64,000 nucleotides of DNA. Source: Frankia sp. R82 (lineage in GTDB: Bacteria; Actinomycetota; Actinomycetes; Frankiales; Frankiaceae). A model generated the notes under the pieces. It worked only from the letters and a program-made list of their open reading frames with translations. It ran no database searches and was not told the origin of the DNA. The translations under genes and the position numbers were made by a program. Below, one piece after another: positions 5,814 to 24,512 of the stretch. The DNA lies in the NCBI RefSeq assembly GCF_023716925.1, contig NZ_JAMQQG010000008.1:1-64000 (forward strand), in the 5' to 3' direction. Position 1 is the stretch's first letter, and each line of letters begins with the position of its first letter.

Positions 5814-6395
5814 ATGACGTCGGTGTCGTTGTCCAAGGGCGGGAATGTCTCGCTGAGCAAGGTCGCGCCGAACCTCACGACGGTGACGGTCGGCCTCGGT
5901 TGGAAGATCCGCCAGACCAGCGGCGCCGACTATGATCTTGATGCGAGCGCCATCGTCGTCAACGAGGCAGGTCGGGTGCTCTCCGACAGCTACTTCGTCT
6001 TCTTCAACAACCTGGTGAGCCCGGACGGCGCGGTCCAGCACCTCGGCGACAACCTCGTCGGTGGCGGCGGTGGGGACGACGAGCAGATCAACGTCGAGCT
6101 GCGCACGCTCACCCCGCAGGCGTCCAAGGTCGTCTTCACCGTGTCGATCTACGACGCCGACCAGCGCCGCCAGACGTTCGGTCAGGTCCGCGACGCGTTC
6201 ATCCGGGTCACCGACGCCAACACCGGCGCCGAGGTCGCCCGCTACGACCTCACCGAGGACGCCTCCACCGAGACCGCCATGATCTTCGGTGAGCTCTACC
6301 GCTATGGCGGCGAGTGGAAGTTCCGCGCTGTCGGCCAAGGCTACTCCACCGGCCTGCGCGGCATCGCCCTCGACTTCGGTGTCAACGTCTCCTGA
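5814..6395 (+). CDS. TerD family protein (tellurium resistance / stress)
   Basis: 193 residues from ATG 5814; a GTG two codons upstream is an alternative. It has the whole TerD fold: an N-terminal VSLSKGGNVSLSK strand, the GLGW turn, YDLDASAIV with paired acidic residues that bind calcium in this family, SDSYFVFFNN, SIYDADQRRQTFGQVRDAFIRV, and the C-terminal GELYRYGGEWKFRAVGQGY. TerD proteins occur in stress and phage-resistance loci, often in several copies; here it is alone, with no TerB, TerC or TerY beside it. Its place between a condensin-like operon and a HerA-type operon fits an accessory or conflict role, but actinobacterial TerD genes are also ordinary chromosomal genes. Confidence 0.95.
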   Translation: MTSVSLSKGGNVSLSKVAPNLTTVTVGLGWKIRQTSGADYDLDASAIVVNEAGRVLSDSYFVFFNNLVSPDGAVQHLGDNLVGGGGGDDEQINVELRTLTPQASKVVFTVSIYDADQRRQTFGQVRDAFIRVTDANTGAEVARYDLTEDASTETAMIFGELYRYGGEWKFRAVGQGYSTGLRGIALDFGVNVS

Positions 6396-6477
6396 TCTGT
6401 GTGGTCTCCTGACCTGTGCCGTCTTCTGACCTGCGCGGTCTTCTGGCCTGTGCCGTCTGTCGGCCTGCGCGGTCGGG
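6390..6477. repeat. Degenerate 17-18-bp tandem repeats overlapping the terD stop
   Basis: About five imperfect units built on CTGACCTGTGCCGTCTT run from the stop codon of the TerD gene into the spacer, alternating TGTGCCGT and TGCGCGGT. The first unit contains the TGA stop itself. The CTGACCTG core is the same as in the 8-bp array at 41887-41966. Confidence 0.7.
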
Positions 6478-6530
6478 TGCGCTTCGCGGTTTTCTGACCT
6501 GGTGCGTCCCGGCGGGCGTCAGACCTCTCA

Positions 6531-7574
6531 GTGCGGAATATGGGAACTTGTCTTATGCGAAACGCAGCGGACGCCGGCCCGTTACCGTCTTTCCATCCTG
6601 ACCTGCGCGCGGCCCAGTTCCTCCCCCGGACCTCAGTGGGACCACGCAGCCTGCGCGTGGTCCGGGCGCTGACCCGGCTGTCCACCCGCCGCTCGAACTC
6701 CCAGACCTCGATGGAACAGATCGCCCCCGGAGTCACGGTCCGCGTGTACCGGCCGGCACCGCCCGACCCGACCAGACCAGACCAGATTCGGCCGTCCAAC
6801 CCGGGTCGTCCGGCGTTGCTGTGGATACACGGCGGCGGCCTCGTTCTCGGGGTCGCGGCCATCGACGACCCGTTCTGCCGCCAGATCGCCGACGACCTCG
6901 GCATCGTGGTGGCCTCGGTGGAGTACCGGCTCGCCCCCGAACACCCGTATCCGACCCCGCTGGAAGACTGCTACTGCGGGCTGCGCTGGCTCGCCGAACA
7001 ACCCGACGTCGACCCCGAGCGCATCGCGGTCGGCGGCAACAGCGCAGGTGGTGGCCTTGCCGTCGCACTCACCCTGCTCGCCCGGCAACGCGGTGAGATC
7101 CACCCCGTGTTCCAACTGCTGTCCTATCCGATGATCGACGACCGCAGCAGCGACCGCACTGACATCACCCCGCGGCAGTTGCGGATGTGGAACCAGAAAA
7201 GCAACCGGTACGCCTGGACCTCCTACCTCGGCCCCGCCGCGACCGACGCGTCCGGCCAGGTGTCATCGCTGGCCGTGCCGGCCCGCACCGACGACCTGAC
7301 CAACCTGCCCCCGGCCTGGATCGGCGTCGGCACCCGCGACCTCTTCCACGACGAGGACGTCACCTACGCCCAGCGCCTGCGCGCCGCCGGGGTGACCTGC
7401 ACGGTGCACGAGGTACCCGGCGCCTACCACGGTTTCGACCTCGTTGAGGCCACCGCCCCCGTCTCCCGCGAGTTCCGCCGCGCCCAGATCGCCGCCCTGA
7501 CCGCCGCTCTGGCGGACCCCATCCCCGCGAACGGGGAGAACAGCGCGCGGTCTGCGTATCCGGCGGCGGACTGA
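6531..7574 (+). CDS. Alpha/beta hydrolase, HSL-type esterase
   Basis: 347 residues if the GTG at 6531 is used; ATGs at 6540 and 6555 are equally possible, and none has a strong ribosome site. The hormone-sensitive-lipase signature is complete: oxyanion motif HGGG (about residue 99), EYRLAPEHPYP, nucleophile motif GNSAGGG (Ser about residue 169), then acid in FHDED and His in YHGFD. These enzymes hydrolyse short-chain esters in the cytoplasm. A short Arg/Pro/Asp-rich insert precedes the first beta strand of the fold. It has no operon partners, lying 136 bp after terD and 237 bp before the HerA-type gene. Confidence 0.92.
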   Translation: MRNMGTCLMRNAADAGPLPSFHPDLRAAQFLPRTSVGPRSLRVVRALTRLSTRRSNSQTSMEQIAPGVTVRVYRPAPPDPTRPDQIRPSNPGRPALLWIHGGGLVLGVAAIDDPFCRQIADDLGIVVASVEYRLAPEHPYPTPLEDCYCGLRWLAEQPDVDPERIAVGGNSAGGGLAVALTLLARQRGEIHPVFQLLSYPMIDDRSSDRTDITPRQLRMWNQKSNRYAWTSYLGPAATDASGQVSSLAVPARTDDLTNLPPAWIGVGTRDLFHDEDVTYAQRLRAAGVTCTVHEVPGAYHGFDLVEATAPVSREFRRAQIAALTAALADPIPANGENSARSAYPAAD

Positions 7575-7811
7575 GCAGGGAGTCTGTCCTTCGATAGCCC
7601 CCAACGGCGATGGCAAGCCTGGTCCAGGCGAGGTCCGTGGTGGAGTCGGTCGAGCCAGGGACGCACTCTGGTCGATTCGGCCGATGTTTGTGCATTGCAA
7701 GAGGGAGAATGTGTTTCTGGCATCATGGCGATGCCTGGACGCTGGGCCAGGATTACGGGGGCGTCATGATCGGTTGCTGGCAGTGGTGGCTGTCTCGGGC
7801 TCGGATCAGGT

Positions 7812-10800
7812 GTGCGGCTGTTGGACGGTTGTCTGCTGCTCAGGCCCGGCCGGCCAGCTGACGGCCGGCCGATGGCGAACCAGCGGATGGTTGACCAGGT
7901 GGCACAGGCTGCGCGGCTGGCGAGCGGGGTGCGGGCCTACCGGTTGGTCTCGGCTCCCCGCCCACCCGAGGATGCCCAGGCCCGAGACCCGGTACCCGCC
8001 CAGCTCTTCGCGGCTGTGTCGGCTGCCCATGCAGTTTTTCAAAGCCTGACAGCGGACGAGGACCGGACGGCGCCACTGCGGAACCTGACAATGCCGCAGG
8101 ATCAGCTTCCCGGTGCTGCCGGGAGCGGCCCCGGGCGTCCTGCCGATCCGGTGCTGCTCGCCGCCTGGCTGCGTCTGCCGATGGAGGCATCCCACACCCG
8201 GCGCGCAGGTACTTCACACGATCAGGAACGGTTTGTCTTTGTGCTGGGCGGGCGGCCCAGCTTTCCCGGCGCAGCACCCGGCCAGGTCCGCTCCGATGGT
8301 ACCCATGGGCTGCTCTTCCCACCGGGCACGAGCGGCGTCGAACTCGCCGACGAAGAACTTGATCAGCTGCTCGCTCATTATCCCGTGTGGCTGCCCTGCC
8401 TGGGAGCTCCGGATGCGCTGTGGACGTTGCCGGACGAAGAGGTCTGGCAGCAGCGTCGCGGCTCGTTCGACGATCATGCAGCCCATCTCGGGTATCCCTT
8501 CGCCTGGCTGGTACTGGCCGAGCCCCGGCGCCCCGAGCAGGTCCAGGCGGACCGTGACCGGCTCGAGGTTGGCATACCAATGCTGCGTGAGGCAGCGCGG
8601 GGGTCCCGGTGGGCCGAGCTCGAACGCGCCGAATCTCGTTTTCGCGAGCTTGCCCGCTACGGCGGCGCTGGCATGTGGAATGTCCGGGTCCTCGTCGGCT
8701 CGCAGACGCCCACCGCGGCACGGGCTGCGGCGTCGCTGCTGTGTGGCGCCGCAGAGCTTGGTGGACTGCCGTACACCCTGGTCCCGTCGGCAAGGCACGG
8801 CAGTTTTGCCGAAGCCTGCGCAACGCCATCTCCGTCCGGGCAGGCAAGCCCGTTCGAGCTTGCGGACGTGTTCCTGCCGTCGTCGCCGTTCGCCGCGTCC
8901 AGCGAGCTCGTGGCCGCGCTCGCCCGCCCGCCGGGCCGGGAACTGCCCGGCATCCGGCTGTTGGCGCCGCACCGGTTCGACGTCACCCGTGACCGCACCG
9001 ACGGCGACGGTTTCCCGATCGGCACCGTGCTCGATCCGGCCTATGCCGACGCCGGCATGTTCGTCATCACCCGGCCCACCCTGAACCGGCATGCGTTCTT
9101 CTGCGGAGCGACTGGTTCCGGTAAATCCCAGACCACCCGCACACTGCTCGCCGCGCTGTCCGCACCGGCCGATCCCGCCGACCGGGTGCCGTGGCTTGTC
9201 ATCGAGCCGGCGAAGTCCGAGTACGCCCGGATGGCCGGCCGGGTGCGTCCCGGCGACACAGTGACCGTGCTACGCCCCGGCGTCCCCGGAGATCCACCCG
9301 CCTGCCTGAACCCGCTGGAACCCGAACCTGGCTATCCACTGCAGAGTCACGCCGACCTGGTCCGCGAGTTGTTCCTGGCCGCGTTCGACGCGGACAATCC
9401 GGTGCCGCAGATCCTTTCGATCGCGCTGTCCGAGGTCTACGCCAGCGCCGGGTGGGACATGGTCACCGGCGTGCCGCGGCCGTCCAGGCGCCCCCGGCTG
9501 TTCGTCGACGAGGACCCGGTCGATGTCCGCCCCCGCTACCCGACGCTCGGCGAGTTGCGGATCGTCGCGCAACGGGTCGTCGACGACATCGGCTACGGCC
9601 ATGAGGTCCGGGACAACGTCCGCGGCCTGGTTGACGTACGTATCCGCGGCCTGCGCGAAGGCACACCCGGCCGGTTCTTCGAGGGCGGCCATCCTCTCGA
9701 CGTCGCCGCCCTGATGAGGCAGAACGTCGTGCTGGAACTGGACCGGGTCACCAGCGACCAGGACAAGGCGTTCCTGATGGGGATCGTGCTGATCCGGATC
9801 GTCGAGCACCTGCGGACGAACCCGCCGAGGCCCGGCGACGACCGGCTGCGCCACGTGCTCGTCCTCGAGGAGGCACACCGGCTGCTACGCCGAGACGCTG
9901 ACGGGCCCGCCGGCAATGCGGTCGAGCTGTTCGCCGGCCTGCTCGCCGAGATCCGCGCCTACGGCGAGGGCGTGGTCGTCGTCGAACAGATCCCCGCGAA
10001 GATCATCCCAGACGTCCTGAAGAACACCGCACTGAAGGTGATGCACCGTCTGCCGGCCGCCGACGACCGGGCCAGCGTCGGCGCCACCATCAACCTGCGT
10101 GAGGAGCAGTCCGAGCACGTCGTTGCGCTGCCACCTGGTCAGGCCGCGGTTGCCCTCGACGGTATGGACCGGCCGGTACTCGTCCAGATGCACCACGACG
10201 AGGATTCCGAGTCAGCCGAGCGGGCCAGCCATCGCCCGCCGGTGCGGGACCCTCGCAGCCGTCTGTGCCCACCGGACTGCCGGGATACGCCGTGCACTCT
10301 GCTCGCGATGAGCGACGCCCGTCACGATGCCGCCTCGGCCCTGCTCGTCCTGTGGGTTGAGGCCGTCATCGCCGCGACCATCGCTGGACTGCGCCCGCCC
10401 ACTCCGTCCGCCGAGGTTTCGGATCTGGTGCTGGCCTGGCCATCCCGGCGTCGTGACTGCGCCTTGGCGCACGCGGTGGAGCGGTCGGTGGACGCCCGTC
10501 GTCCCCTGCTGCGGCGCTGGCTCGACCCCGCCGACCTGGCCGATCACCTGACGGCGACGCTCATGGCGCACCTGGGCCTACACCCGGCGCCCACTGAGGA
10601 CGCCCGCCGCTATCAGGCCGGGGTCTTCCGCTGGCAGGACGTGCGGGCCCAGCTGCTGCGCGACACCGCACGCCACCGGCCCGATTCCGTCGGCCATCCG
10701 CATCCGCTCACGGAGCAGTGGGCCCGCCGCGGCCTGATCCTCGAGGGTGCCGATATTCTGGCGCAGCTGCAGTCCTTCCGAGAGAATCCGGCGCACGCGG

Positions 10801-11030
10801 AAGGATCTGAGCGGGTCGCGGTCGGCGACCCGGACGCGAGTGGGCTCACCACCGCGCAGATGGAAGTGACCGGTTCGGCCGGGGAGCCGTATCTGCGCCG
10901 GGCCTTCGCCCGAGCCTGCGCCGACGACATCACCAGGATCGCCCGCCTGTTCGCGAAGCCCTCGCAGCGGACCTCGGCTCCCAACGTCGGGCCTGCTGGC
11001 ACTGGCACTGGCTCGGGGACAGGGCCATGA
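7812..11030 (+). CDS. HerA/DUF87-family ATPase, first gene of an uncharacterised operon
   Basis: Up to 1,072 residues from GTG 7812; an in-frame ATG at 7872 may be the true start. The first 400 residues match nothing I know. The motor core follows: Walker A GATGSGKS at residues 432-439, Walker B LVLEEAH at about 683-689, an arginine-rich stretch after it, and VVVVEQIPAKI as the sensor-like strand. This is the layout of HerA/FtsK-superfamily hexameric translocases of the DUF87 type. A Cys cluster CPPDCRDTPC (C819, C823, C828) follows the core, then a 230-residue helical C-terminus. The stop overlaps the next start (ATGA at 11027). HerA-type ATPases pump DNA or proteins and recur in conflict systems with nuclease or effector partners; no nuclease motif is evident here. 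Confidence 0.85.
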   Translation: MRLLDGCLLLRPGRPADGRPMANQRMVDQVAQAARLASGVRAYRLVSAPRPPEDAQARDPVPAQLFAAVSAAHAVFQSLTADEDRTAPLRNLTMPQDQLPGAAGSGPGRPADPVLLAAWLRLPMEASHTRRAGTSHDQERFVFVLGGRPSFPGAAPGQVRSDGTHGLLFPPGTSGVELADEELDQLLAHYPVWLPCLGAPDALWTLPDEEVWQQRRGSFDDHAAHLGYPFAWLVLAEPRRPEQVQADRDRLEVGIPMLREAARGSRWAELERAESRFRELARYGGAGMWNVRVLVGSQTPTAARAAASLLCGAAELGGLPYTLVPSARHGSFAEACATPSPSGQASPFELADVFLPSSPFAASSELVAALARPPGRELPGIRLLAPHRFDVTRDRTDGDGFPIGTVLDPAYADAGMFVITRPTLNRHAFFCGATGSGKSQTTRTLLAALSAPADPADRVPWLVIEPAKSEYARMAGRVRPGDTVTVLRPGVPGDPPACLNPLEPEPGYPLQSHADLVRELFLAAFDADNPVPQILSIALSEVYASAGWDMVTGVPRPSRRPRLFVDEDPVDVRPRYPTLGELRIVAQRVVDDIGYGHEVRDNVRGLVDVRIRGLREGTPGRFFEGGHPLDVAALMRQNVVLELDRVTSDQDKAFLMGIVLIRIVEHLRTNPPRPGDDRLRHVLVLEEAHRLLRRDADGPAGNAVELFAGLLAEIRAYGEGVVVVEQIPAKIIPDVLKNTALKVMHRLPAADDRASVGATINLREEQSEHVVALPPGQAAVALDGMDRPVLVQMHHDEDSESAERASHRPPVRDPRSRLCPPDCRDTPCTLLAMSDARHDAASALLVLWVEAVIAATIAGLRPPTPSAEVSDLVLAWPSRRRDCALAHAVERSVDARRPLLRRWLDPADLADHLTATLMAHLGLHPAPTEDARRYQAGVFRWQDVRAQLLRDTARHRPDSVGHPHPLTEQWARRGLILEGADILAQLQSFRENPAHAEGSERVAVGDPDASGLTTAQMEVTGSAGEPYLRRAFARACADDITRIARLFAKPSQRTSAPNVGPAGTGTGSGTGP

Positions 11031-12520
11031 GCGGTGAAAGCGGCGGCACTTCAGGCGGCGAAAGCGGTGGCGGCCCGGGTGGTTTCGGCGGTCCCAGTGG
11101 CTTCGGCGGCGAGAGCGGTGGGCGTTCCACCGCTGGCGGAGAGACGGGGACGACGGCGACAGCCGAGGGGTCCGGTACACCCGAGGCAACGGGTGGCCTG
11201 GAAGGTGCGACGCCTTCGGAGACAGTCGAGGGGCCGGCTGACAGTGACGCGCAGGCCCTAGCGGAATCGCTTGTCGCTGAAGCGGAAACAATCATCGCCG
11301 ACGCCCGCGCCGCAAGCGTCGCAGCGGCGGAGGCGGACGCGCTGGTCGCCGAGGCCGAAACGGTCGTGGCGGAGGGCCGCGCGGAGAGCATCGCTGCCGC
11401 GGAGGCGGAATCCCTGGTCGCCCAGGCGGAGGCGGTGATAGCGGAGGCTCGGGACAGCGACAGTACCGAGGCACCTGCCACGGTGAGCGGGGCCGAGGCT
11501 CTGGCCGAGTCGCTCGTCACGGATTCGCCGGACGAAACCACCACCGCCGCTCCTGGGATCGGCGCGCTCGAAGCTCCCGCGGAGAATCCCACCGACATCG
11601 CGGCAGAGCTCGGTGATCCCGAGACCACCGCGGAAACCCTCGCGGCGGAGGACAACCAGGCCCCCGTGAGCCTTGTCGAGGTACCCGCGCCGGCGGCCGA
11701 GCAGGAGGTCGCTCCTCCATCTGCCGAACCTGAGATCTCCCCTCCCTCGCCCGAGCCGGAGGCCCCCGAGCCGCGCACCGAACCCGAAATCCAGACCCCG
11801 GACCCGGGAACCGAGGTACTTCAGCCAGACTTGATACCTGAGGAAGCCGCTCCAGAGTCGGAGCCAGAGGCTCCTGAGCCAGCCACGGATCCCGAGATCA
11901 CGCCGTCGCCGGGCAAAGAGCCAGCGGAACCGGCTACCGGGCCGGAACTTGCCCCGACACCATCGGGGACCGAAAACCCGGAGATTGTTCCGCAGGAATC
12001 CCTGGTGATGCCGGATATCATCAGGGATGCCGGCCCACATGATCCGGACGTGGTTTCGGAAGTATCGGACGACGAGGAGGAGGATTCCGGTTCCGATGCA
12101 TCGGAACAGAGGCCGCCGACGCGTGCAGATCCGAAAAGGCCGGCGGAACGTGCGGCCGCTGGCGATGTGCGAAGAGCGGTCAACTCGATCGAAGATGATC
12201 TCGATCCGGAGTCCGACGAGGACTGGGACCTGGGTGAGATCGAGTCGAACCCCGAGGCGAGAAGGCCCGATTTTACAAAGCATGGAGATTATCGCTGGCG
12301 TCAAAAATCTGTGAATGTGGACCACGTTACGGAAGTAGGGCAAAAATTTATCCAGGAAGAAGATGGTGCGGAAGTGTACGTAGCGCCATCCGAGGTGAAG
12401 CCATGGGAATTTGATGTTGTTATTGTTGGGCGGGGAGGTCATGTGACCAGCATCCCAGGAGTCGATCAGAGGGGTCTGCTTAGAATGGAGGAAAAGAGAA
12501 AATGGGAGCGGGTGTATTAG
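11027..12520 (+). CDS. Long repetitive acidic protein with a foreign-composition C-terminal domain (putative effector carrier)
   Basis: 497 residues, unrecognised. Order: a Gly/Ser-rich head (residues 1-45); three 24-residue Ala/Glu repeats (about 79-150; AESLVAEAE type, likely helical coiled coil); a long Pro/Glu tract with PEPE-like periodicity (about 225-350); an acidic SDDEEEDS patch; and a compact C-terminal domain of about 85 residues from RPDFTKHGDY to the end, containing WRQKSV, VYVAPSEVKPWEF and VVIVGRGG. DNA encoding the last domain drops to roughly 40-58% GC per 60-bp line by hand count, against 70% or more around it. The start overlaps the HerA gene stop and the stop abuts the next ATG. 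A long disordered stalk with a swappable foreign tip is the layout of polymorphic toxins; activity is not shown. Confidence 0.75.
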   Translation: MSGESGGTSGGESGGGPGGFGGPSGFGGESGGRSTAGGETGTTATAEGSGTPEATGGLEGATPSETVEGPADSDAQALAESLVAEAETIIADARAASVAAAEADALVAEAETVVAEGRAESIAAAEAESLVAQAEAVIAEARDSDSTEAPATVSGAEALAESLVTDSPDETTTAAPGIGALEAPAENPTDIAAELGDPETTAETLAAEDNQAPVSLVEVPAPAAEQEVAPPSAEPEISPPSPEPEAPEPRTEPEIQTPDPGTEVLQPDLIPEEAAPESEPEAPEPATDPEITPSPGKEPAEPATGPELAPTPSGTENPEIVPQESLVMPDIIRDAGPHDPDVVSEVSDDEEEDSGSDASEQRPPTRADPKRPAERAAAGDVRRAVNSIEDDLDPESDEDWDLGEIESNPEARRPDFTKHGDYRWRQKSVNVDHVTEVGQKFIQEEDGAEVYVAPSEVKPWEFDVVIVGRGGHVTSIPGVDQRGLLRMEEKRKWERVY

Positions 12521-12780
12521 ATGAGAAGTACCTACGATCCTGATCGCGATTCTCTTATGATCGATCTTTCTGATGGTTACGTTGAAGAAGCCGTCAGCAC
12601 AAGAATATGTGACGTTGACTTTGGAAGTGGCGTGGTGGCGCTCTTTCTTGATCGAGACGAGAAGCTCCTCGGCATAAGCATCATGGGTCTTAGTGGCGTG
12701 GTTCCTTCTGTGGTTATGGATAGTCTTCGTGAATAATTTCGATTCCGACTAATCGTGCTTTGGTATTGATTTCGGGGGTG
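12281..12780 (+). other. Low-GC island spanning the 3' end of one gene and the DUF2283 gene
   Basis: Hand counting gives about 47-48% GC over 12301-12780, with AT-ending codons common, while flanking genes are near 70%. The shift begins inside the 11027 gene at its last domain, covers the DUF2283 gene and ends at the start of the gene at 12786. This suggests that the tip domain and DUF2283 gene arrived together as one cassette. Confidence 0.8.
12521..12736 (+). CDS. DUF2283 family small protein (possible immunity/antitoxin-like partner)
   Basis: 71 residues starting at an ATG that directly follows the TAG of the preceding gene, with no spacer. It has the DUF2283 form: YDPDRDSLMIDLSDG at the N-terminus, then a DVDFGSGVVALFLDRDEKLLGISIMG beta-meander. 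DUF2283 proteins are small beta folds of unknown function. Tight coupling to the foreign-composition domain just upstream, and the same low GC, suggest the two travel as a pair, as toxin-immunity pairs do. The immunity role is inference. Codon use (AGA, ATA, TCT) is unlike the rest of the window. Confidence 0.85.
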   Translation: MRSTYDPDRDSLMIDLSDGYVEEAVSTRICDVDFGSGVVALFLDRDEKLLGISIMGLSGVVPSVVMDSLRE

Positions 12781-12785
12781 ATAGT

Positions 12786-14687
12786 GTGGCGTCGGTGATG
12801 CCGTCGGAGCAGGATTCTGACGAGCTTGAGCAGGTGGAGCGGCGGGAACTGGCTGAGCGGCTGTTATCGCAGCGGATGGACCGGTTCCGGTGGGGTTGGC
12901 AGTTCGTGCCTGGGCAGCAGCGGGCGCTGGACCCATTGAGCCGGCCGGTGCTGCTGGCCACGGAGTTCGGAGCGGCGGCCAGTGCCGCCCAGCTCGGGGT
13001 GTTGAGCCGGGCATGCGCGTTCGGCGGAACGGTTCTTGGTGGCGCGGCGCTGGCGCTTGGTGCCGTGACTGGCACGCCATTGGTTCTTCCCGGGCTCGCC
13101 ATCGCTGGTGTGTCAGTAGTTGGCGGTGGCTTGGCCACGGCGTATGCCAGGTGGCGCGAGGGGGCGGAACGCGCCCGGGAGGGCGCCCGGGTCGACGAGC
13201 ACGACCGCCAGCGGGGCGCTACCGCTGCCGCGGTCCCCCGAGACGCGTGGCAACCTGTGCAAGCCCCACCTGATGTCAACCGGACCGATGTCGTCTGCGG
13301 AACCTGGGACGGCTGGGCCGCGATGATCGCGTCGACCGCCGGCTCACTGATGGCCACCGACCGCAGTGTGGTGGTGCTTGACCTGACCAGCCACGATGTC
13401 GCCGAGGACCTGATGCGGCTGGTGAGTAGCACCGGCCAGCAAGTGCCCTGTTTCCGGTTCCCGACCCTGCTCAGCATCGTTGATCTGTTCCACGAGCTGG
13501 AGCCGGAAGCTGTCGGGCGGGTGATCGCCGACGCGTTTGCTGTGCTGCCTGGTCGCAGCGGATCAGCCGAGATCCGCCGCCGCGACGAGGCGATTGTCCG
13601 AACCGTCGCCCGTCTAATCGGCGGACCGCTGACGTTTCGCCGCCTTGCCGCGGGCGTACGAGTCCTGCAACGCCTCAGCGAGAGTGGCGCCGGCAGCGCC
13701 CAGATCGACGGCGCATTGAGCCTTGAGCAGCAGTTGGCGCTCAGTCGCGTCAGCCACGAGTTCGGCCGCACGCCGCAGGAGATCGACGAGCTGACCTTTC
13801 TTGTCGACACGTTCGAGATGCTGGCTGGTAACGACGGCCGACGGCACTTCGACGCCCCGCCACCGGCCGACGAAGAGCCCACCGTGCGTCCGGCCGGCGG
13901 GCAGTGGCGCCTTGGGCTGACCGTGTTCACCGCGCCGATATACAACAATGACAGTGGTGCGTCGGCGCGTATTCTGCTGTACCGCTTCATGGAGGACCTT
14001 CGTTATGGAAAGCCACATGAAACCGATGACCTGATCATCGTCGCCGGAGTCGACCGGCTTGGCCGAGACGTGCTCGACGAGTTCAGTCAGCACGCCCACA
14101 ACGCCAAGGTCCGCACCATGTTTCTGCACCAGCATGTGCCTCCGCTCGAGGACGCACAGCGGATGCTGAACACCGCGGGCAGCGTCACCCTGCTCATGGG
14201 GACCTCCAATGCTCTGCAGGCAAGGGCCGCGGTCGATCTGATCGGGGCTGAGTACCGCTTTGTTCTTAGCCAGGAGACTCAGAACACCAGCGAGTCGCTC
14301 GGCTCGAGCCAGGACGAGACGATCGGCCAGGCGCACACCGAATCGACAGATCAGCAGCGCGGGCGCAGTTTCCAGTTCGGGCTGCGGCACGGCGAGCGGC
14401 TACCGATTTTCACCCGCAACTCGGGTTCCTCTCGTGGCACCGCCCGGACATCCCAGTGGGCGCGCACGCGTGGGACGTCCGAGACGACTGAGCATGGCAC
14501 GTCCATAACCACCTCCCGGGTGTTTGAGCCCGGCGTGGAACCGGTCGAGATCGAGACCCTCCCGAGGACCGCGTTCATCGCCCTGAACAAGGTCCATTTC
14601 CGGGAGGCGGTTATGGGCGACTGCGACCCCGGTATCTGCCGGGACCCGCGGGCCGTTGACCCGCAGCCCGAGCGCCCCCGGCGGTAG
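12786..14687 (+). CDS. Membrane-anchored VirD4/HerA-like protein lacking a recognisable Walker A
   Basis: 633 residues from GTG 12786 (GGGGGTG just upstream); the ATG at 12798 is an alternative. An acidic N-terminus leads into paired hydrophobic segments at about residues 65-122 (GGTVLGGAALALGAVTG, LVLPGLAIAGVSVVGGG), a hairpin of two membrane helices. The soluble part has strands typical of a RecA/VirD4-like core (SVVVLDLTSHD, DLIIVAGVDRLG, VRTMFLHQ, SVTLLMG). It ends with a Thr/Arg/Ser-rich stretch and VFEPGVEPVEIETLPRTAFIAL, which resembles the C-terminal end of TraG/VirD4-like conjugation ATPases. No GxxGxGK[ST] is present; the equivalent place reads CGTWDGWAAMIAST. It looks like an inactive membrane partner for the HerA ATPase of this operon. 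Homology is tentative. Confidence 0.65.
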   Translation: MASVMPSEQDSDELEQVERRELAERLLSQRMDRFRWGWQFVPGQQRALDPLSRPVLLATEFGAAASAAQLGVLSRACAFGGTVLGGAALALGAVTGTPLVLPGLAIAGVSVVGGGLATAYARWREGAERAREGARVDEHDRQRGATAAAVPRDAWQPVQAPPDVNRTDVVCGTWDGWAAMIASTAGSLMATDRSVVVLDLTSHDVAEDLMRLVSSTGQQVPCFRFPTLLSIVDLFHELEPEAVGRVIADAFAVLPGRSGSAEIRRRDEAIVRTVARLIGGPLTFRRLAAGVRVLQRLSESGAGSAQIDGALSLEQQLALSRVSHEFGRTPQEIDELTFLVDTFEMLAGNDGRRHFDAPPPADEEPTVRPAGGQWRLGLTVFTAPIYNNDSGASARILLYRFMEDLRYGKPHETDDLIIVAGVDRLGRDVLDEFSQHAHNAKVRTMFLHQHVPPLEDAQRMLNTAGSVTLLMGTSNALQARAAVDLIGAEYRFVLSQETQNTSESLGSSQDETIGQAHTESTDQQRGRSFQFGLRHGERLPIFTRNSGSSRGTARTSQWARTRGTSETTEHGTSITTSRVFEPGVEPVEIETLPRTAFIALNKVHFREAVMGDCDPGICRDPRAVDPQPERPRR

Positions 14688-14732
14688 GTGCGCGGTTGCT
14701 GGAAATCTGCTTTCAGGACGCTGAAGGTACCT

Positions 14733-14864
14733 TCACAACAGGATGAGCAGTACCACCGGGGTGCAGGGCACCGCGACGATGACAAGGACCGCCAGAACAT
14801 AGAACGCCAGTAGTACCCGGCGCTGCCGGCGGACATGACCGGGCATCGAAGTCGGGGGTTCCAT
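14733..14864 (-). CDS. 43-residue single-pass membrane protein coupled to the GAP1/GTPase gene
   Basis: Very small gene, reading MEPPTSMPGHVRRQRR and then a hydrophobic stretch of about 25 residues to the C-terminus (VLLAFYVLAVLVIVAVP...). The ATG shares its A with the TGA of the upstream gene (TGATG), so it is positioned for termination-reinitiation. The Arg-rich segment before the helix predicts an N-inside orientation with the C-terminus at or across the membrane. The function is unknown. Its coupling suggests it acts with the 989-residue protein, which has its own membrane segment. Confidence 0.6.
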   Translation of the reverse strand: MEPPTSMPGHVRRQRRVLLAFYVLAVLVIVAVPCTPVVLLILL

Positions 14865-17833
14865 CACTGGCCTGTGCCCCGCGTGCCGGTCGGATAGGGC
14901 AGGGCGTTCGCCGCCGGGCGCGGTCCGGTCGGTCGTTGGTTCTGTTGTCGGGTTACCAGATGGCGGAACCGACGAGAGTGCGCCGAGAGCATCCACAGCA
15001 CCGGCTCGGTAGCGGCGATTCGGGCGGCCGGGTTGAGCTGGCCGTCCGGCGGATCCGATTGCCCGTCCGGCTGTACGCCGTCGTGCGTTCGGCGTTGGAA
15101 ACTGTGCTCCACGCCCATCCCCTGCCCTGATCTGGTCGGGGCGTGGGGGTGGGGGTGGGGGTGGAGGTGGAAGCAGTCCACTGAGCTCAGCGCCCAGTAG
15201 CGGGTGTCGGTGAACTCCTGCGCCGGTTGCAATGCCAGCTCCCGCAGGTGCGCCGGGCCGGACAACCACTGGCGTACGGCGGCATCCTGGTACTCGGGGG
15301 CGAACGGGGGCAGCTGTAGACCCGGTGGCAACTGGCGCAACCAGTCGGTCTTGCTGATCACCACGGCCAGCCGCAGGGAGATCCGACCGCCGCGCCGAGG
15401 CAGTGTCCGATCGGCTTCAAGCACCCTGATCAGCCGCCGCATGGTGTCAAAGGTCGGCTCCGCAGCTGGACGAGCGACCTCGAGTGCCGTGTCGAGCTGG
15501 GCCGGGGAGAGCCGCTCGAGGAGCGCCGGCTGCGCGGCCGGGTCGACAACGAGCAGCGCGTTGTGCGTCCGCTCCAGGTACCGGTGAGTGGTGCGCAGCG
15601 TCTCCTGATCGGTGTAGAGCCTTCCGTCGGGGTCGAAGAAAAAGACGATTCGACGCGGGCCGCGACGAACACCGACCGTGACGACAAGGGCCCGCGGGTT
15701 CGGAGTTGGCGTCGACTCCAGTTGGCCCCCGTTGGCCAGAATCCGCATGCTGCGCTGATACCACTCCTCATCCGTGCGGAACGCGAAGGACATGGCAAGA
15801 TCGCCCGCAGAGGCGAGGTCGCGCAGACCGGCGAGAGCGGCGACCAGATAGGTCGTTTTGCCGGAAGCAGGCGGCCCGACCAGGGCGATATGGACGATCG
15901 GCACATGGCCGACACCATCAGGCAGCCGACCGGAGCATGATCCGCAGAAACTGGCGAGATGGCCGCCTCGGCCGGACGCCCAGGTGCGCAGGCGTGTCTC
16001 GCAGGCGCACACGCGGTACAGCAGGCCTCCTTGCCCGGGCCACAGATCGTCATGGCGCCGTCCGCAGGACGGATTGGAGCACTGGTAGAACGGCCGGCGC
16101 AGCGGGCGGGCGCAGTCGGGATACGGACAGTCGACACCTCGCTCCGCCGCCAGCCGCAGGGTGGCCAACGTCAGCTGCGGGCGGGTCTCCCGCAGAAACC
16201 AGCGCACCGACTCCAGGAGGCGCAGGCCCGTACCCGCGGCCGTGAACAGCGCGACCGTGGTGAGGACGAAGGCTGCATACACGGCAAGAACGACCCGGCC
16301 GAGGCCAGTAGCCATGGTGACGCCGGCCGACGTGCCGGCCTGCCACATCCGGGTGTCGCGGCCAACTGGTCCGGTGGGCCTGACCAGCGTCTCCGGCCTG
16401 CCTGGCCCAATGCCTCCCCGGAGCGGGCCGGGCCAGCGAGTCGGGCCGGCCAGGGGGAAGGTCGCCCGGGCGGTGAGCACCGTGTCCTGAGTAGCTGCCC
16501 TGACGGCGGAAAGGTCCGCTGCCGCCTGGCCGTTGTGACCGTAGTAGGCAGGATATGCAACCTCGTTCTCCGCGGGCCGTAGCACCGGTGGCCCGGCAGC
16601 CAGCGTGCGCGGCGGCAGGACGAGAAGGCGACCGCCCAGCCGGCTGAACGCACTCACCATGCCGAACACGAACAACAGGGCACCGCGGGCATGGCTACTG
16701 GTCGTGGCACCAGCAGACTGGAGCCGGCCGGTCCAGGGCTGCCATGATCCCGACAGCGACCACCTGGGCCGCCGTGGCTGTGGACCTGCCCGTCGCGCCG
16801 ACGCGTCCGCCCGCGGGGCGGCCGGTGTGAGGAGGTCGACCTCACCGGGCGGCCCGGAATGCCGTGTGGGCCGGTTCAGGGGAATGCCCGCCCTGGCAGC
16901 CACCTCGACCAGGTGCCGGGCGGCATCGGCATCTGCCGCGCGGAACGAGGCGCTGACTGATGCCAGGACCTCCACCCTTCCGACCTGCCACACCTGCGCG
17001 GCCACCACTCCCCAGGGGCCGGCAGGTAGCTCGCTGCGGGCACTCGCATGCAGATCATGCGTCTCGAAGCGGACGCCGAACGGGACGGCGTGCGCATCGA
17101 TGCCGGCACTGTGCGGTACCACGTTCAGCACATGACGGGACTGCTCCGGTTGCCCCACCTGCACGGCGAAGGTCATCGCCAGGGCACGTTCCCGCGGTAG
17201 CGAGCCGGTGGCCAACCGGATCAGGTCGATCATGGCTGCCGGGTCGGGCTCCACGAGCACGACCCGGACGGCGCCTTGGCCGAGCGCCGCCCGGCGGACG
17301 CCGTCCAACAGCGGCGCCAGCCGGCCCTCGCGATGCAGGTCGCGGGCGCGGTTGATCGCTGCTGCCCGTGGACGCGACAGGTCAAGGGCCAACCTGTTGA
17401 CGACTGGAAGAACGCCATGGGACGGTCGGTCCGCCCAGCCTGGCCACCAGGCCAGGTCGGCGGGGAGATGCCGGCCGAGATCCTGCTCAGGCTCGGTGAG
17501 CAGCAATGCGTGCTGCAGCACATTTCCTGGACGGCCGGCGAATTCGTCGCCGATGTCGACGGTCCGGCAGATGACGGCGGCCCCGTTCTCCAGACGTGAG
17601 TAGCTCAGGACGACGCCAGGTGTGTTCTGGGGCGCAGAGCGGCGCTGCACCCGACTGGTCTCGGCTGTCTGCCGTTGTGGTCCCGTCCGACGTGCGCTTG
17701 TGGCGAGCTCGGCGGCAAGCAGCGCGGTGACCTGCTCGCGTGTGCTGTCGTCCAGGCCGGGCGTGGACGCTGTGACGCGCCAGCCCGGCCGATTCGACGA
17801 CGCCGCTGACGTGTGATGCAGCTGATAGATCAT
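14864..17833 (-). CDS. GAP1-N2-like / zinc-ribbon / double-GTPase-type multidomain protein
   Basis: 989 residues from ATG 17833. The N-terminus (MIYQLHHTSAASS, then STPGLDDSTREQVT) matches the pattern I know from GTPase-associated protein 1 N2 domains, extending to about residue 330. A basic Pro/Arg linker follows, then a weak hydrophobic segment near 380-400 and a clear membrane segment at about 505-540. Next are Cys pairs forming zinc ribbons (CPYPDC, CSNPSC, CAC, CGSC; about 570-645). Last comes a P-loop GPPASGKT at 653-660 (K659) with a later SKTDW, matching the NKxD-like GTPase specificity motif. Such DO-GTPase/GAP1 proteins belong to NTP-dependent bacterial conflict systems. Normally the parts are separate genes; here they are one chain. 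The gene faces the HerA-type operon tail to tail. Confidence 0.8.
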   Translation of the reverse strand: MIYQLHHTSAASSNRPGWRVTASTPGLDDSTREQVTALLAAELATSARRTGPQRQTAETSRVQRRSAPQNTPGVVLSYSRLENGAAVICRTVDIGDEFAGRPGNVLQHALLLTEPEQDLGRHLPADLAWWPGWADRPSHGVLPVVNRLALDLSRPRAAAINRARDLHREGRLAPLLDGVRRAALGQGAVRVVLVEPDPAAMIDLIRLATGSLPRERALAMTFAVQVGQPEQSRHVLNVVPHSAGIDAHAVPFGVRFETHDLHASARSELPAGPWGVVAAQVWQVGRVEVLASVSASFRAADADAARHLVEVAARAGIPLNRPTRHSGPPGEVDLLTPAAPRADASARRAGPQPRRPRWSLSGSWQPWTGRLQSAGATTSSHARGALLFVFGMVSAFSRLGGRLLVLPPRTLAAGPPVLRPAENEVAYPAYYGHNGQAAADLSAVRAATQDTVLTARATFPLAGPTRWPGPLRGGIGPGRPETLVRPTGPVGRDTRMWQAGTSAGVTMATGLGRVVLAVYAAFVLTTVALFTAAGTGLRLLESVRWFLRETRPQLTLATLRLAAERGVDCPYPDCARPLRRPFYQCSNPSCGRRHDDLWPGQGGLLYRVCACETRLRTWASGRGGHLASFCGSCSGRLPDGVGHVPIVHIALVGPPASGKTTYLVAALAGLRDLASAGDLAMSFAFRTDEEWYQRSMRILANGGQLESTPTPNPRALVVTVGVRRGPRRIVFFFDPDGRLYTDQETLRTTHRYLERTHNALLVVDPAAQPALLERLSPAQLDTALEVARPAAEPTFDTMRRLIRVLEADRTLPRRGGRISLRLAVVISKTDWLRQLPPGLQLPPFAPEYQDAAVRQWLSGPAHLRELALQPAQEFTDTRYWALSSVDCFHLHPHPHPHAPTRSGQGMGVEHSFQRRTHDGVQPDGQSDPPDGQLNPAARIAATEPVLWMLSAHSRRFRHLVTRQQNQRPTGPRPAANALPYPTGTRGTGQ

Positions 17834-18247
17834 CGAATGTCACCGGACACGGAAGTGACCGCAGGGTCCCCTGTCTCTTGCCAACCCGGATTCACTTGAT
17901 GTCGTATTCACCGTTCGCGCGCCTCCGCCCCCGTGCAAAGCCTGCCCATCCAGCATGGCAGTGCCACGCGTGTGGTGGCTACCAAACACGGACAGAAACA
18001 TCGCCCTCGTCCTGTCCTGTCCGGGGGTCGTCTCTGCTCGGGCACCGGGCGGCCGTGGTGGCATGCCGGTGCCGTGCGATCGGTGGCTGGATCTGTGGGC
18101 CGTCTAGCCGATCGCGTGCGCTCCCCGCCGGCGACTGTGTCGTCGAGGCTCGTAATCGGTTCCAACAACCTGCCGGGTTGGAACGGCCTGGTCGGATCAA
18201 TGGCCGGACGGACAAGCGGCCGGACGGATAAATCGAGGGAGTGCGCC
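17834..18247. other. Divergent intergenic region
   Basis: 414 bp between the GAP1/GTPase gene (minus) and the oxidoreductase gene (plus). It should contain both promoters. GAGGGA at 18235-18240 is the ribosome site for the plus-strand gene. No further gene or repeat is evident. Confidence 0.5.
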
Positions 18248-19317
18248 ATGATGGCCATCTCGGTGGGTGGGGCTGGCGATGCCGGCACGGACGAGGCCCT
18301 GCGCGGCAATGACGCGGCGATGACGACGGCGCTGGTACCGGCGGCTTTCGGTGGTGGGCTGGAGCATCGTGAGGTGCCCAGAGCCGAGCCGGGGATGGGC
18401 GAGGTGCTGGTGGAGGTGGCGGCGAGCGGGGTGAATCCGCTGGATCTGAAGATCCGGGACGGGGGAGCGGCCCATGCCCGGGTGAACGTGCTAGCGGTGC
18501 TGGGGATCGATCTGGCCGGGACCGTGGTGGCCGTCGGGGCGGGGGCGGGCGGGTTTGCGGTGGGTGACGAGGTCTACGGGATGGCGGGTGGGGTCGGCGG
18601 GCTGCCGGGGACGCTGGCGCGCCAGGTGGTGGTGGATATCGATCTGCTTGCGCGCAAGCCGGCGAGGCTGACCATGGTGCAGGCCGCTGCGCTGCCGTTG
18701 GCGCTGGTCACGGCCTGGGAGGGGCTGGTCGACCGGGCGGAGGTGGGCCCGGGGCAGACCGTGCTCGTCCACGGAGGTGCCGGCGGGGTGGGGCACATCG
18801 CCGTCCAGCTGGCCGTCGCCCGGGGCGCTCGGGTGTTCGCGATGGGGACCGGGGCCAGCCTTGAAGTGATCCGCGGGCTCGGCGCCGAGCCGATCGATTA
18901 CCGTGCGACTTCGGTCACGGACTATGTGGCGTCGGCGACCGGGGGTGCGGGTTCGACGTCGTGTTCGACACGGTCGGCGGGCCCACGCTGGACGCATCGT
19001 TCGAGGCGGTCCGGCGGTACACCGGGCGGGTCGTGAGCATCCTCGGCTGGGGGACGCACAGCCTGGCACCGCTGAGCTTCCGCGGCGCCACCTACTCGGG
19101 CGTGTTCACCCTGCAACCCCTGCTGGACGGCATCGGCCGGGCCCACCACGGCCAGGTGCTCGCCCGCGCCGCCGAGCTGGTTGACGCCGGGGCGATCACG
19201 CCGATCCTGCACCCGGAGGTGTTCGACCTGGCCACCGTCGAGCAGGCGCACGAGGTGCCGCGAAGCGGCCGGGCCCGCGGCAGGGTCGTCATCGACCTAC
19301 GGGCAGACACGGCCTGA
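18248..19317 (+). pseudogene. Zinc-type (MDR) NADP-dependent quinone oxidoreductase, split by a frameshift
   Basis: The start is ATG 18248 with GAGGGA 7 bp upstream. Frame one carries the GroES-like domain (EVAASGVNPLDLKIRDG, then GIDLAGTVVAVG) and the Rossmann motif VHGGAGGVGHIAVQLA. At about 18950-18953 the reading moves by one base: the canonical GFDVVFDTVGG continues only in the next frame, which runs intact to the TGA at 19317. One missing T in GGTTTCGAC restores the full protein of about 356 residues. Without it, translation stops at 19036 with a scrambled tail (262 residues). The family catalyses NADPH-dependent reduction of quinones or enones and lacks catalytic zinc. Both halves are well conserved, so this is a recent mutation or a sequencing error. 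Confidence 0.85.
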
Positions 19318-19400
19318 TCAGCCACCGGTGTTGGCAGCGCCAGGCGTGCGGGACCGGCCAGGCGTGACGGACCGGCCGGTCGTCACGGTGCAGCCGGAGG

Positions 19401-20357
19401 TCACGGCGCGGGCAGACCGGTGCGGGCGCGTTCGAGGTAGACGGTGGGGCTCATGCCGAGGCGGGTGACGAACACCCGGCACAGAGTCTCGGGGCTGCCG
19501 AAGCCGCTGAGCTCGGCGGCGGTCGCGACCGTCCGGCCGGCCTGCAGATGTGTCTGTGCGGCCTCGATCCGGATGTTCTCGACGTGACGGCTGGGCGTTG
19601 TGTCGAGCTCGTCGTGGAACAGCCGGCCGAGCTGGCGCACGCTCACCCCGGCAAGTCCGGCCATGTCGGCGACGGTGAACCGCTGGGCCGGGTCAGCGGC
19701 GATGGCATCCAGCAGGGCGCGCAGCGGCGGGTCGGTGGTGACCGTCGAGCGCGACGGCGCCGAGAACTGGGACAGCCCACCCGGGCGCTGCATGAAGATC
19801 ACCATCTGCCGGGCGACGTCCCGGGCGCCCTGCGGGCCGAGATCGTCCTCGACGAGAGTGAGCGCGAGGTCCATTCCCGAGCCAATCCCGGCCGCAGTGA
19901 CGATCGGCCCGTCCCGGACGAACAGCACGTCGTGCACCACCCGAACGGACGGGTACGCCGCCGCGAACCGGCGGCTCTGCGTCCAGTGCGTTGTTGCCCG
20001 CCGCCCGTCGAGCAGCCCGGCCTGGGCAAGCAGGAACGACCCGGTGCAGACCGAGGCTGTGCGCCGTGCCAACCCGCTTAGCCGGACCACTGCGCCCATC
20101 AGCTCCGGTGCGAACGGCCTGGTCACCATCCCGTAGGCGCCTGGGACGACCAGCGTGTCGACCTTGGCCAGGTCGGCGGCGGCAACGTCGGCGTGCAGCA
20201 CAAGCCCGTTGGACGCCCGGGCGTGCGCGCCATCCACCGAGGCGAGCATCGTGCGGTAGTCGCCGCCGAAAGCGTTGGCGTGATGGAACACGTCTGCCGG
20301 CCCGGCAACATCGATCATCGTGGCGTTGTCGTGGACCAGAACCACCACCGTCCGCAT
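19401..20357 (-). CDS. GlxA-type AraC-family transcriptional regulator with DJ-1/PfpI domain
   Basis: 318 residues from ATG 20357. The N-terminal 180 residues form the DJ-1/PfpI-like class-I glutamine-amidotransferase fold (MRTVVVLVHDNATMIDVAGPADVF), with the nucleophile-elbow Cys in ASVCTGSFLLAQAGLL. The C-terminal 90 or so residues carry the two AraC helix-turn-helix motifs (VADMAGLAGVSVRQLGRLF and AAELSGFGSPETLCRVF). These GlxA proteins sense small amino or amide compounds and activate neighbouring genes. It is convergent with the frameshifted oxidoreductase, which may be its target in intact relatives; that is inference. Confidence 0.93.
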   Translation of the reverse strand: MRTVVVLVHDNATMIDVAGPADVFHHANAFGGDYRTMLASVDGAHARASNGLVLHADVAAADLAKVDTLVVPGAYGMVTRPFAPELMGAVVRLSGLARRTASVCTGSFLLAQAGLLDGRRATTHWTQSRRFAAAYPSVRVVHDVLFVRDGPIVTAAGIGSGMDLALTLVEDDLGPQGARDVARQMVIFMQRPGGLSQFSAPSRSTVTTDPPLRALLDAIAADPAQRFTVADMAGLAGVSVRQLGRLFHDELDTTPSRHVENIRIEAAQTHLQAGRTVATAAELSGFGSPETLCRVFVTRLGMSPTVYLERARTGLPAP

Positions 20358-20422
20358 CTGACCATCATGGCGGGCGGCCCGCTTCTGCGGCGTATGTCAA
20401 CCGGCCTACGACGGGCGGACGG

Positions 20423-22478: not shown

Positions 22479-24512
22479 ATGTCGGGGGATCGTGACGCAA
22501 CGCCAGGGTGGGACTTCTTTGTCTCCTACACCAGGGCGGACCAGCCATGGTCGGAGTGGATCGCCTGGCAGCTGGAGGAGAGCGGTTACCAGGTGCTGAT
22601 CCAGGCCTGGGACTTCGTGCCTGGCGTGGACTGGCGAGTCAAGATGGATCAGGGCGTCGTCCACGCCACCCGCACCATCGCGGTGGTGTCCACGGCCTAT
22701 CTGGGTTCCGTCTATGGCGGCGAGGAGTGGCGCGCCGCCCGGACCGCCGACCCGGACGGCCTGCAGCGCCGCCTGCTGCCCATGCGCATCGAGGACTGCG
22801 AGCTGCCCGACGAGCTGCACACCGTGGTGTCGGTCGACCTGTTCGGCCTGGATGCGCTGGCGGCCCAGGATCGTCTGCTCACCGCGGTGCGGGCCGCCCT
22901 GCTGGGCCGGACGAAGCCGATCGTCAAGCCGGAATTCCCCGTTCACCCCGACCGCCCGCACCCCGACCGCCCGCACCCCGCCGCTGACTCCGCGACCACC
23001 GCTGACAGCGACGACACCACCCAGCCCCCCTCGAACGGACGTCCCCCGTCTCTCCCGCCGCCTCCGGACTTCCCGGGCTCTCCGCAGGACTCCACCGTTC
23101 CGGTGGCCCCGACCGTTCCGGTGGCCCCGACCGTTCCGGTGGCCCCGACCGTTCCGATCGGCCTCACCGCTGCGGCGGAGTCCCCGCCGCTGATGTCCCC
23201 ACCACCCGTGGCGGTCCTGCGGCGCAGCCCGTGGGCGGTCGGCGGACGTCTCACCGGCCACACCAGCTGGGTGCGGTCGGTCGCGTTCTCGCCGGATGGA
23301 CGCCTGCTTGCCAGCGGCAGTCACGACCGGACCGTCCGACTGTGGGACGTCACCCATCCAAGGCGTGCCCGGCCGGCCGCTGCCCCCCTGACCGGACCAA
23401 CCGACCGGGTACTCTCCGTCGCCTTTTCCCCGGACGGACGTCTGCTCGCCGCCGGCGGCGCCGATGGGACGGTCCGTCTCTGGGAGATCGCCCATCGGGG
23501 TCGGGCCACCCTGCTCGCCACCCTGCGTACCGGCTCTACCGACGCACCCTCGCTGGTGTGGTCGCTGGCCTTCGCCCCGGACGGTCGGACACTCGCCGCC
23601 GGCTGTCATGACGGCCAGATCCGCCGCTGGGACATCCCCGGCACGCGACCCGTCGGCGCCGGGCGCGCCGCTCGCAACAGTGTCCCCGCCGCCGGCACCA
23701 CTCTCCCCGGCCACACCGACCGGGTACTCTCCGTCGCCTTCTCCCCGGACGGACGCCTGCTCGTCGCCGGCGGCGCCGACGAGACGGTCCGCCTGTGGGA
23801 CATCACCGATGAGGCCCACGCCCAGTCCCACACCATCCTGCGCACCACCGGCATCTCCGACGCCCACGGCGCCGGCAACGCCCATGCCCCCGCCACCAGC
23901 GCTCCCGCCGCCGCCAATGCCACCACCGCGGCCCGGGCTGGTGCCGGCGGTACAACCGGGACCAGCGGCCTCACGGGAGCCGGCGGGACCACGGGGACCG
24001 GTCGAGTCTGGTCCGTCGCTTTCGCCCCGGACGGACGCACTCTCGTGGCCAGCGGCGACGGCATCCTGCGACGGTGGGCGCCAGGCCGGACGGCCGCCCA
24101 GACCGTGTCTCTGACCAGCCTCGCCACCGGCAGCACCACCCGTGTGCTCTCGGTCGCCTTCGCCCCGGACAGCTGCACGCTGGCCGCCACCAGCGCCGAC
24201 GGAACGCTACGGCTGTGGGACCTCCCCCCTCCGTTCCATGCCCGTCCGTCCGAGGCAAGCCCATCCGGCGCTCGTCCGTCCGGCCTTGGCTCGTTCGGCG
24301 CCCGTCCGTCCGATGCCCGTCCGATCGGTGCCCGTGCGTCCGAGGCCCGTCCATACGAGGCCCGTCCATACGAGGCCCGTCCGATCGGTGGGCCCCTCGC
24401 CGGGCACACCAATCTCCTCGTCTTCGCAGTCGCCTTCGCGCCGGACGGTCACACCCTCGCTACCGGCAGCGCCGACGGCACGATCCGTCTCTGGGACCGG
24501 TCCGAACTCTGA
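22479..24512 (+). CDS. TIR domain-WD40 propeller protein (putative TIR NADase defence effector)
   Basis: 677 residues from ATG 22479. The TIR domain (about 11-145) begins WDFFVSYTRADQPWSEW, with helix QLEESGYQV, the IQAWDF loop, STAYLGSVYGGEEW containing the likely catalytic Glu (E82 or E83), and a final LFGLDAL region. A disordered Pro/Thr/Ser linker contains VAPTVP repeated. Seven WD40 repeats follow from about residue 257, each with VAFSPDG or VAFAPDG and xLWD, enough for one closed propeller. There is no NB-ARC/STAND NTPase between sensor and TIR. An Arg/Pro/Ser/Glu repeat (EARPYEARP) is inserted before the last blade. TIR domains of this kind cleave NAD+ on activation; the propeller would be the sensor. 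No partner gene is coupled. Confidence 0.93.
   Translation: MSGDRDATPGWDFFVSYTRADQPWSEWIAWQLEESGYQVLIQAWDFVPGVDWRVKMDQGVVHATRTIAVVSTAYLGSVYGGEEWRAARTADPDGLQRRLLPMRIEDCELPDELHTVVSVDLFGLDALAAQDRLLTAVRAALLGRTKPIVKPEFPVHPDRPHPDRPHPAADSATTADSDDTTQPPSNGRPPSLPPPPDFPGSPQDSTVPVAPTVPVAPTVPVAPTVPIGLTAAAESPPLMSPPPVAVLRRSPWAVGGRLTGHTSWVRSVAFSPDGRLLASGSHDRTVRLWDVTHPRRARPAAAPLTGPTDRVLSVAFSPDGRLLAAGGADGTVRLWEIAHRGRATLLATLRTGSTDAPSLVWSLAFAPDGRTLAAGCHDGQIRRWDIPGTRPVGAGRAARNSVPAAGTTLPGHTDRVLSVAFSPDGRLLVAGGADETVRLWDITDEAHAQSHTILRTTGISDAHGAGNAHAPATSAPAAANATTAARAGAGGTTGTSGLTGAGGTTGTGRVWSVAFAPDGRTLVASGDGILRRWAPGRTAAQTVSLTSLATGSTTRVLSVAFAPDSCTLAATSADGTLRLWDLPPPFHARPSEASPSGARPSGLGSFGARPSDARPIGARASEARPYEARPYEARPIGGPLAGHTNLLVFAVAFAPDGHTLATGSADGTIRLWDRSEL

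Follow-up and report, generated by a model that had tools for sequence, protein, structure and literature searches.

The window (the whole stretch of DNA analysed, 64,000 nucleotides) carries at 14864-17833, on the minus strand, a gene encoding a protein of 989 residues in which GAP1 and DO-GTPase domains are fused, as recognised from Pfam, hydropathy and orthologues in four further genomes. It is followed by a gene for a 43-residue micro-membrane protein (14733-14864, minus strand) and converges on a HerA-type operon (7812-14687, plus strand).

The fused GAP1/DO-GTPase protein

The preliminary description had placed GAP1-N2, a zinc ribbon, a membrane segment and a GTPase P-loop in a single chain, and all of these are present. 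The N-terminus matches the GAP1-N2 profile (PF20013; residues 1-146, E 1.8e-19, 70.6 bits against a cut-off of 24) and is followed by GAP1-M (PF20014; residues 168-242, E 1.2e-9); the GAP1 part has no match past residue 242, and Pfam may hold no GAP1-C model. Residues 649-837, in the P-loop domain, match DO-GTPase2 (E 3.4e-8, 33.9 bits against a cut-off of 27), which makes this domain a relative of the DO-GTPases and not an unrelated ATPase. The DO-GTPase1 model also matches (E 2.8e-7), and the TRAFAC/DO-GTPase-like domain spans about residues 645-890, with the P-loop GPPASGKT at 653-660. Each match of the window protein lies above its own cut-off and all four families are matched by the orthologues as well (5/5). 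Hydropathy indicates a single strong membrane segment at residues 503-540 and a weaker hydrophobic stretch near 386-406. Moreover, the Cys pairs 569/574, 585/590, 609/611 and 630/633 are invariant across the five orthologues, and judging from the sequence the clusters at 569-590 and 609-633 resemble two zinc ribbons.

Full-length orthologues were found in four Frankiaceae genomes (G311, G313, G315 and G316), all of one other genus; the five fused loci fall into two lineages, and one of these is made up of a single genus. As the orthologues share 61-62% identity with the window protein, and this across two genera, the 989-residue frame is real and not a chance open reading frame. AlphaFold models of the fused protein and of protein D (see below), built from two-row alignments, gave pLDDT values of 31-32, too low for either model to be used. 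The coupling of the fused gene by TGATG to a 43-residue membrane protein was confirmed, the stop codon of the fused gene and the start codon of the micro-gene sharing nucleotides. The micro-gene is kept in 5/5 genomes, its products having 43-74 residues with an invariant RRQRR and then a hydrophobic helix, and in the other four genomes the overlap is ATGA instead of TGATG.

The usual layout in the class is DO-GTPase, GAP1 and DO-GTPase as three genes. That GAP1 and the double GTPases normally lie apart, as had been stated, agrees with the 35 unfused GAP1-N2 genes that were read (30 + 5); fusions occurred only in the five loci, and neither HerA nor D was near any of the unfused genes (0/35). 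A profile search with the fusion in another actinobacterial family, at family rank, returned matches to the GTPase part only, and in five of the loci from that search, including the two longest frames, GAP1 and GTPase were in separate genes. Occasional GAP1-GTPase fusions, as well as zinc ribbons and membrane segments, are already mentioned in Kaur et al. 2020 (PMC7159879), and therefore the fusion alone is not new.

A tree was built from 49 GTPase domains, the five fused ones and 44 for comparison. The fused domains form one clade nested in the downstream, TM/zinc-ribbon type of DO-GTPase (support 98/93 and 97/91), which indicates that GAP1 was joined to its usual downstream neighbour. The upstream DO-GTPase is missing from the fused locus. 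In Kaur et al. 2020 (PMC7159879) it is a conserved glutamate in Walker B that defines the DO-GTPases. G1 (GPPASGKT), the G3 core (DPDG) and G4 (SKTD) are invariant in the five fused orthologues. However, the DxxGE glutamate (Walker B/G3), present in 44/44 comparison domains of the alignment, is lost in 5/5 fused ones, four of which read DPDGD and that of the window DPDGR. Because this defining residue is lost, the fused GTPase is, as far as its sequence tells, a derived relative of the DO-GTPases and not a typical member. The glutamate site is the position of Ras Gln61, and since it holds Asp or Arg in the fused GTPases their GTP hydrolysis may be slow or dependent on a helper.

The HerA operon and its exchangeable cassette

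The operon begins with a gene encoding a HerA/FtsK-superfamily pumping ATPase of 1072 residues (7812-11030, plus strand; HerA_C E 5.3e-7, motifs GATGSGKS and EEAH), which is 75-76% identical to those of the four other genomes with the block. Its best solved relatives are HerA-like helicases, and the PADLOC HerA models gave only distant, partial C-terminal matches. At the other end is protein D (12786-14687, plus strand; 633 residues), a membrane protein with a hydrophobic region at about 55-121 and a conserved C-terminal region, for which no known family was matched. The proposal of D as a decayed ATPase of the HerA/VirD4 type found no support, the hhalign probability from profile comparison being 0.35% and 14 of 500 shuffled alignments being as good.

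Between HerA and D lies a cassette whose content differs among the five loci. In the window it encodes a polymorphic-toxin-like protein of 497 residues (11027-12520, plus strand) with an acidic, Ala-rich repeated N-terminus carrying ALAES motifs, and a replaceable C-terminus of about 80 residues that has no confident family match. This gene is followed by one encoding a DUF2283 protein of 71 residues (12521-12736, plus strand; PF10049, E 8.5e-6, over the cut-off), which by its position after the toxin is the putative immunity protein. The same two elements occur in G315, where the C-terminus is 53% and the DUF2283 protein 60% identical to those of the window. In G313 the last 100 residues of the toxin match an RNase family (PF00545, 25.2 bits against a cut-off of 24; PDB barnases at E 0.003) and the immunity gene that follows encodes Barstar (E 3.4e-18). 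In G311 and G316 a YwqJ-deaminase is followed by MORN_2 (YwqK-like) and endonuclease V, which brings the toxin C-terminal types to three among the five loci, and G311 keeps a leftover DUF2283-like fragment.

Between G313 and G315, HerA, D and the fusion are 97% identical whereas the toxins share 61% of their N-terminus and about 30% of their C-termini, which are unrelated. With such a backbone carrying unrelated C-termini, and with the C-terminus of the window and G315 shared at the level given above, the cassette bears the signature of polymorphic toxins, namely a constant N-terminus, exchanged C-termini and an adjoining immunity gene. The deaminase cassette has a known parallel in the Bacillus subtilis order ywqJ-ywqK-ywqL, which it resembles: there ywqJ-ywqK, in the operon ywqH-ywqL, encodes a toxin and its antitoxin that act between cells (PMC8321402) and YwqL is endonuclease V (PMC6364969). 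Pfam found no WXG or LXG domain in the toxins of the window, G311, G313, G315 and G316, hydropathy no membrane segment in the toxin, and nothing recognisable as an export signal, a pore or a delivery device was seen. NADAR-domain genes were also located (L049, 11529-12176, minus strand; L051, 10491-11123, plus strand); in G313 (E 1.5e-51) and, by sequence, in G315 such a gene lies between the immunity gene and endonuclease V.

HerA and D are also found together elsewhere. D was close to HerA in 18/18 loci picked by HerA alone, and in the 31 HerA loci outside the block, all with D, GAP1 or a DO-GTPase was never nearby (0/31). Toxins are carried by the GAP1-less loci L098 and L103 (YwqJ-deaminase) and L170 (ADP-ribosyltransferase, E 3.5e-28), while further HerA-D loci (class A) have housekeeping genes alongside and no toxin was seen in them. 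Swapping of toxin and immunity genes was found in both of the HerA-D classes that bear cargo. On gene content, HerA-D is the core, the toxins are its cargo and the GTPase fusion is an addition in one branch.

Linkage and mobility of the block

The convergence on the HerA-type operon had been correctly described, and a census placed this operon beside the fused gene in 5/5 genomes with the same layout; no genome searched had the fusion without HerA-D beside it. A reading of 20-32 kb around the four orthologous blocks revealed no synteny with the flanks of the window block, bar a TIR-only match in G315. The suggestion that the fused gene and the operon are one larger system is therefore supported, since the block stands in different flanks in two genera and converges in all five genomes, but the association holds in one direction only, the 31 other HerA loci being free of GAP1 and DO-GTPase.

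The block lies in a segment of about 14 kb (6396-20420) which is absent at the same place in five genomes of the same genus; in these, the counterparts of window positions 6395 and 20421 are 27 to about 1600 bp apart. The module genes have a low GC content at third codon positions (0.76-0.81, compared with mostly 0.86-0.94 in genes close by), which favours a gain here rather than a loss in the relatives. Unrelated lipase and dehydrogenase genes are found within the segment, and its ends yielded no tRNA, Rfam RNA or attachment repeat. Tandem 17-bp repeats (CGTCTCCTGATCTGTG-like) are present at the left limit (6386-6470). Just outside the island a gene (22479-24512, plus strand) encodes a protein of 677 residues in which a TIR domain (TIR_2, E 5.4e-32) is fused to WD40 repeats (E 9.8e-76), and this is likely another conflict gene.

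Possible function and competing explanations

The conserved content (HerA-type ATPase, membrane protein D, a toxin with exchangeable C-terminus and its immunity gene, and the convergent membrane-anchored fusion with its micro-membrane partner) suggests a reading to which we would give a little under an even chance, that the fusion is a derived GAP1/DO-GTPase module controlling the HerA-D toxin system and would be the regulatory half of a conserved mobile module. HerA would serve as motor for D, the component in the membrane, and the two would either export the toxin or position it at the membrane; the immunity protein would shield the producer and its kin. The fusion would act at the membrane as a GTP-binding switch whose GAP1 part senses a cue, and could license or restrain the machine. 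With GTP bound and hydrolysis slow or assisted, it may be a latched switch and may have become independent of the second, upstream DO-GTPase, which the locus lacks. The five loci, being two lineages, represent few independent events, and HerA-D-toxin loci occur without the fusion in most genomes; both facts count against this control. As most of these loci do without the fusion it is not needed by the core machine, and being on the opposite strand the fused gene is not co-transcribed with the HerA operon.

More tentatively, HerA and D could be an undescribed actinobacterial machine for the export of polymorphic toxins, to which, in one branch, a GAP1/DO-GTPase switch was added as one membrane protein that has lost the catalytic glutamate and would latch the machine on or off. 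The HerA-D-toxin locus is also a candidate actinobacterial route of toxin delivery, of which no description was found among the papers retrieved. Against export stands the statement of Kaur et al. (PMC7159879) that related systems give no sign of secretion.

Known systems share some of these features. Like the GAP1-N2 GTPase-centric systems, as far as the available text of PMC7159879 describes them, the locus has GAP1-N2 and GAP1-M, a TRAFAC GTPase with Cys clusters and a membrane segment, and constant regulators next to variable effectors. Unlike them it has GAP1 first and fused to the downstream GTPase, lacks the upstream GTPase and the signature glutamate, and has partners, namely HerA, D and a toxin/immunity pair, that this text does not mention for such systems. 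Genes of the FNIII-repeat or tubulin/HSP70/kinase themes were not found by Pfam in the window neighbours or among the cassette genes of the four orthologous loci. With the T7SS/LXG toxin systems (PMC3482391, PMC8321402) the locus shares an FtsK/HerA-superfamily ATPase, a constant N-terminus, swapped C-terminal toxins and an adjoining immunity gene; however, the toxin has an acidic repeat N-terminus with no LXG/WXG seen, a single P-loop was recognised in HerA and D is the second gene of the core. The HerA anti-phage systems of PADLOC have a HerA ATPase of distant sequence similarity, but no nuclease or SIR2/DUF4297 partner was recognised here, D and the toxin/immunity cassette being found instead.

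Rather doubtful, in our opinion, is intracellular suicide (abortive infection), in which a toxin held by its immunity protein would be freed inside the cell by the GAP1/GTPase switch; HerA-D would belong to the sensor or help to process the toxin and would not be an exporter. Kaur et al. argue (PMC7159879) that GAP1/DO-GTPase systems act intracellularly and have no secretion features, defence inside cells is also driven by ATPases of the HerA type (PADLOC HerA matches), and the toxin has no visible membrane segment. Nevertheless, swapped C-termini on a repeat-rich N-terminus, cognate immunity and the DUF2283-like remnant of G311 form the pattern of exported polymorphic toxins, and Bacillus subtilis cells compete with one another by means of the YwqJ toxin and its ywqJ-ywqK operon (PMC8321402).

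The block could also be an island of two independent conflict systems inherited side by side by chance, in which the fused GAP1/GTPase gene would serve defence on its own and have no functional contact with the HerA-D toxin locus next to it. The opposite strands, the absence of the fusion from the other HerA-D loci (0/31), the sampling of two lineages only and the unrelated lipase and dehydrogenase genes sharing the segment are consistent with it. We consider it unlikely, since two genera have retained the gene content and the convergent order, with 61-76% identity, while flanks and toxin were replaced, and the fusion was not found apart from HerA-D. It is very improbable that HerA-D is a conjugation- or packaging-like machine moving DNA, with the toxin locus as a stabilising addiction cassette and GAP1/GTPase as a defence passenger: HerA superfamily ATPases usually move DNA, the nearest solved structures are HerA helicases, there is a weak phage terminase-type match and several class A loci are without toxin, but no relaxase, integrase or transfer gene was recognised among the annotated genes of the window segment and toxin and immunity genes are exchanged in both classes with cargo.

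Beyond the preliminary description, the analysis adds the polymorphic toxin/immunity cassette of the HerA operon and the loss of the family glutamate in the fused GTPase. The literature found gives no tested function for GAP1/DO-GTPase systems. In these loci such a switch is linked physically to effectors that can be recognised, namely a barnase-like RNase with Barstar or a deaminase with YwqK-like immunity, and to one motor, which makes what the GTPase controls experimentally addressable.

The genome of the window has a further HerA-D locus at L102 (G000:C133:22630-25437), and L103 (G000:C310:32188-34209), where the deaminase toxin is accompanied by YwqK-like and endonuclease V-like frames, belongs to it as well. 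In another actinobacterial family the loci L160-L168 have HerA-D and no toxin was seen. The neighbouring genes are presumably MurT/GatD, and the arrangement suggests a housekeeping form of HerA-D. Toxin-like proteins with no Pfam match are encoded after HerA in L159 (2894-4144 and 2664-2897, both minus strand) and in L104 (6120-7916, minus strand), and these may possibly represent new toxin and immunity families.
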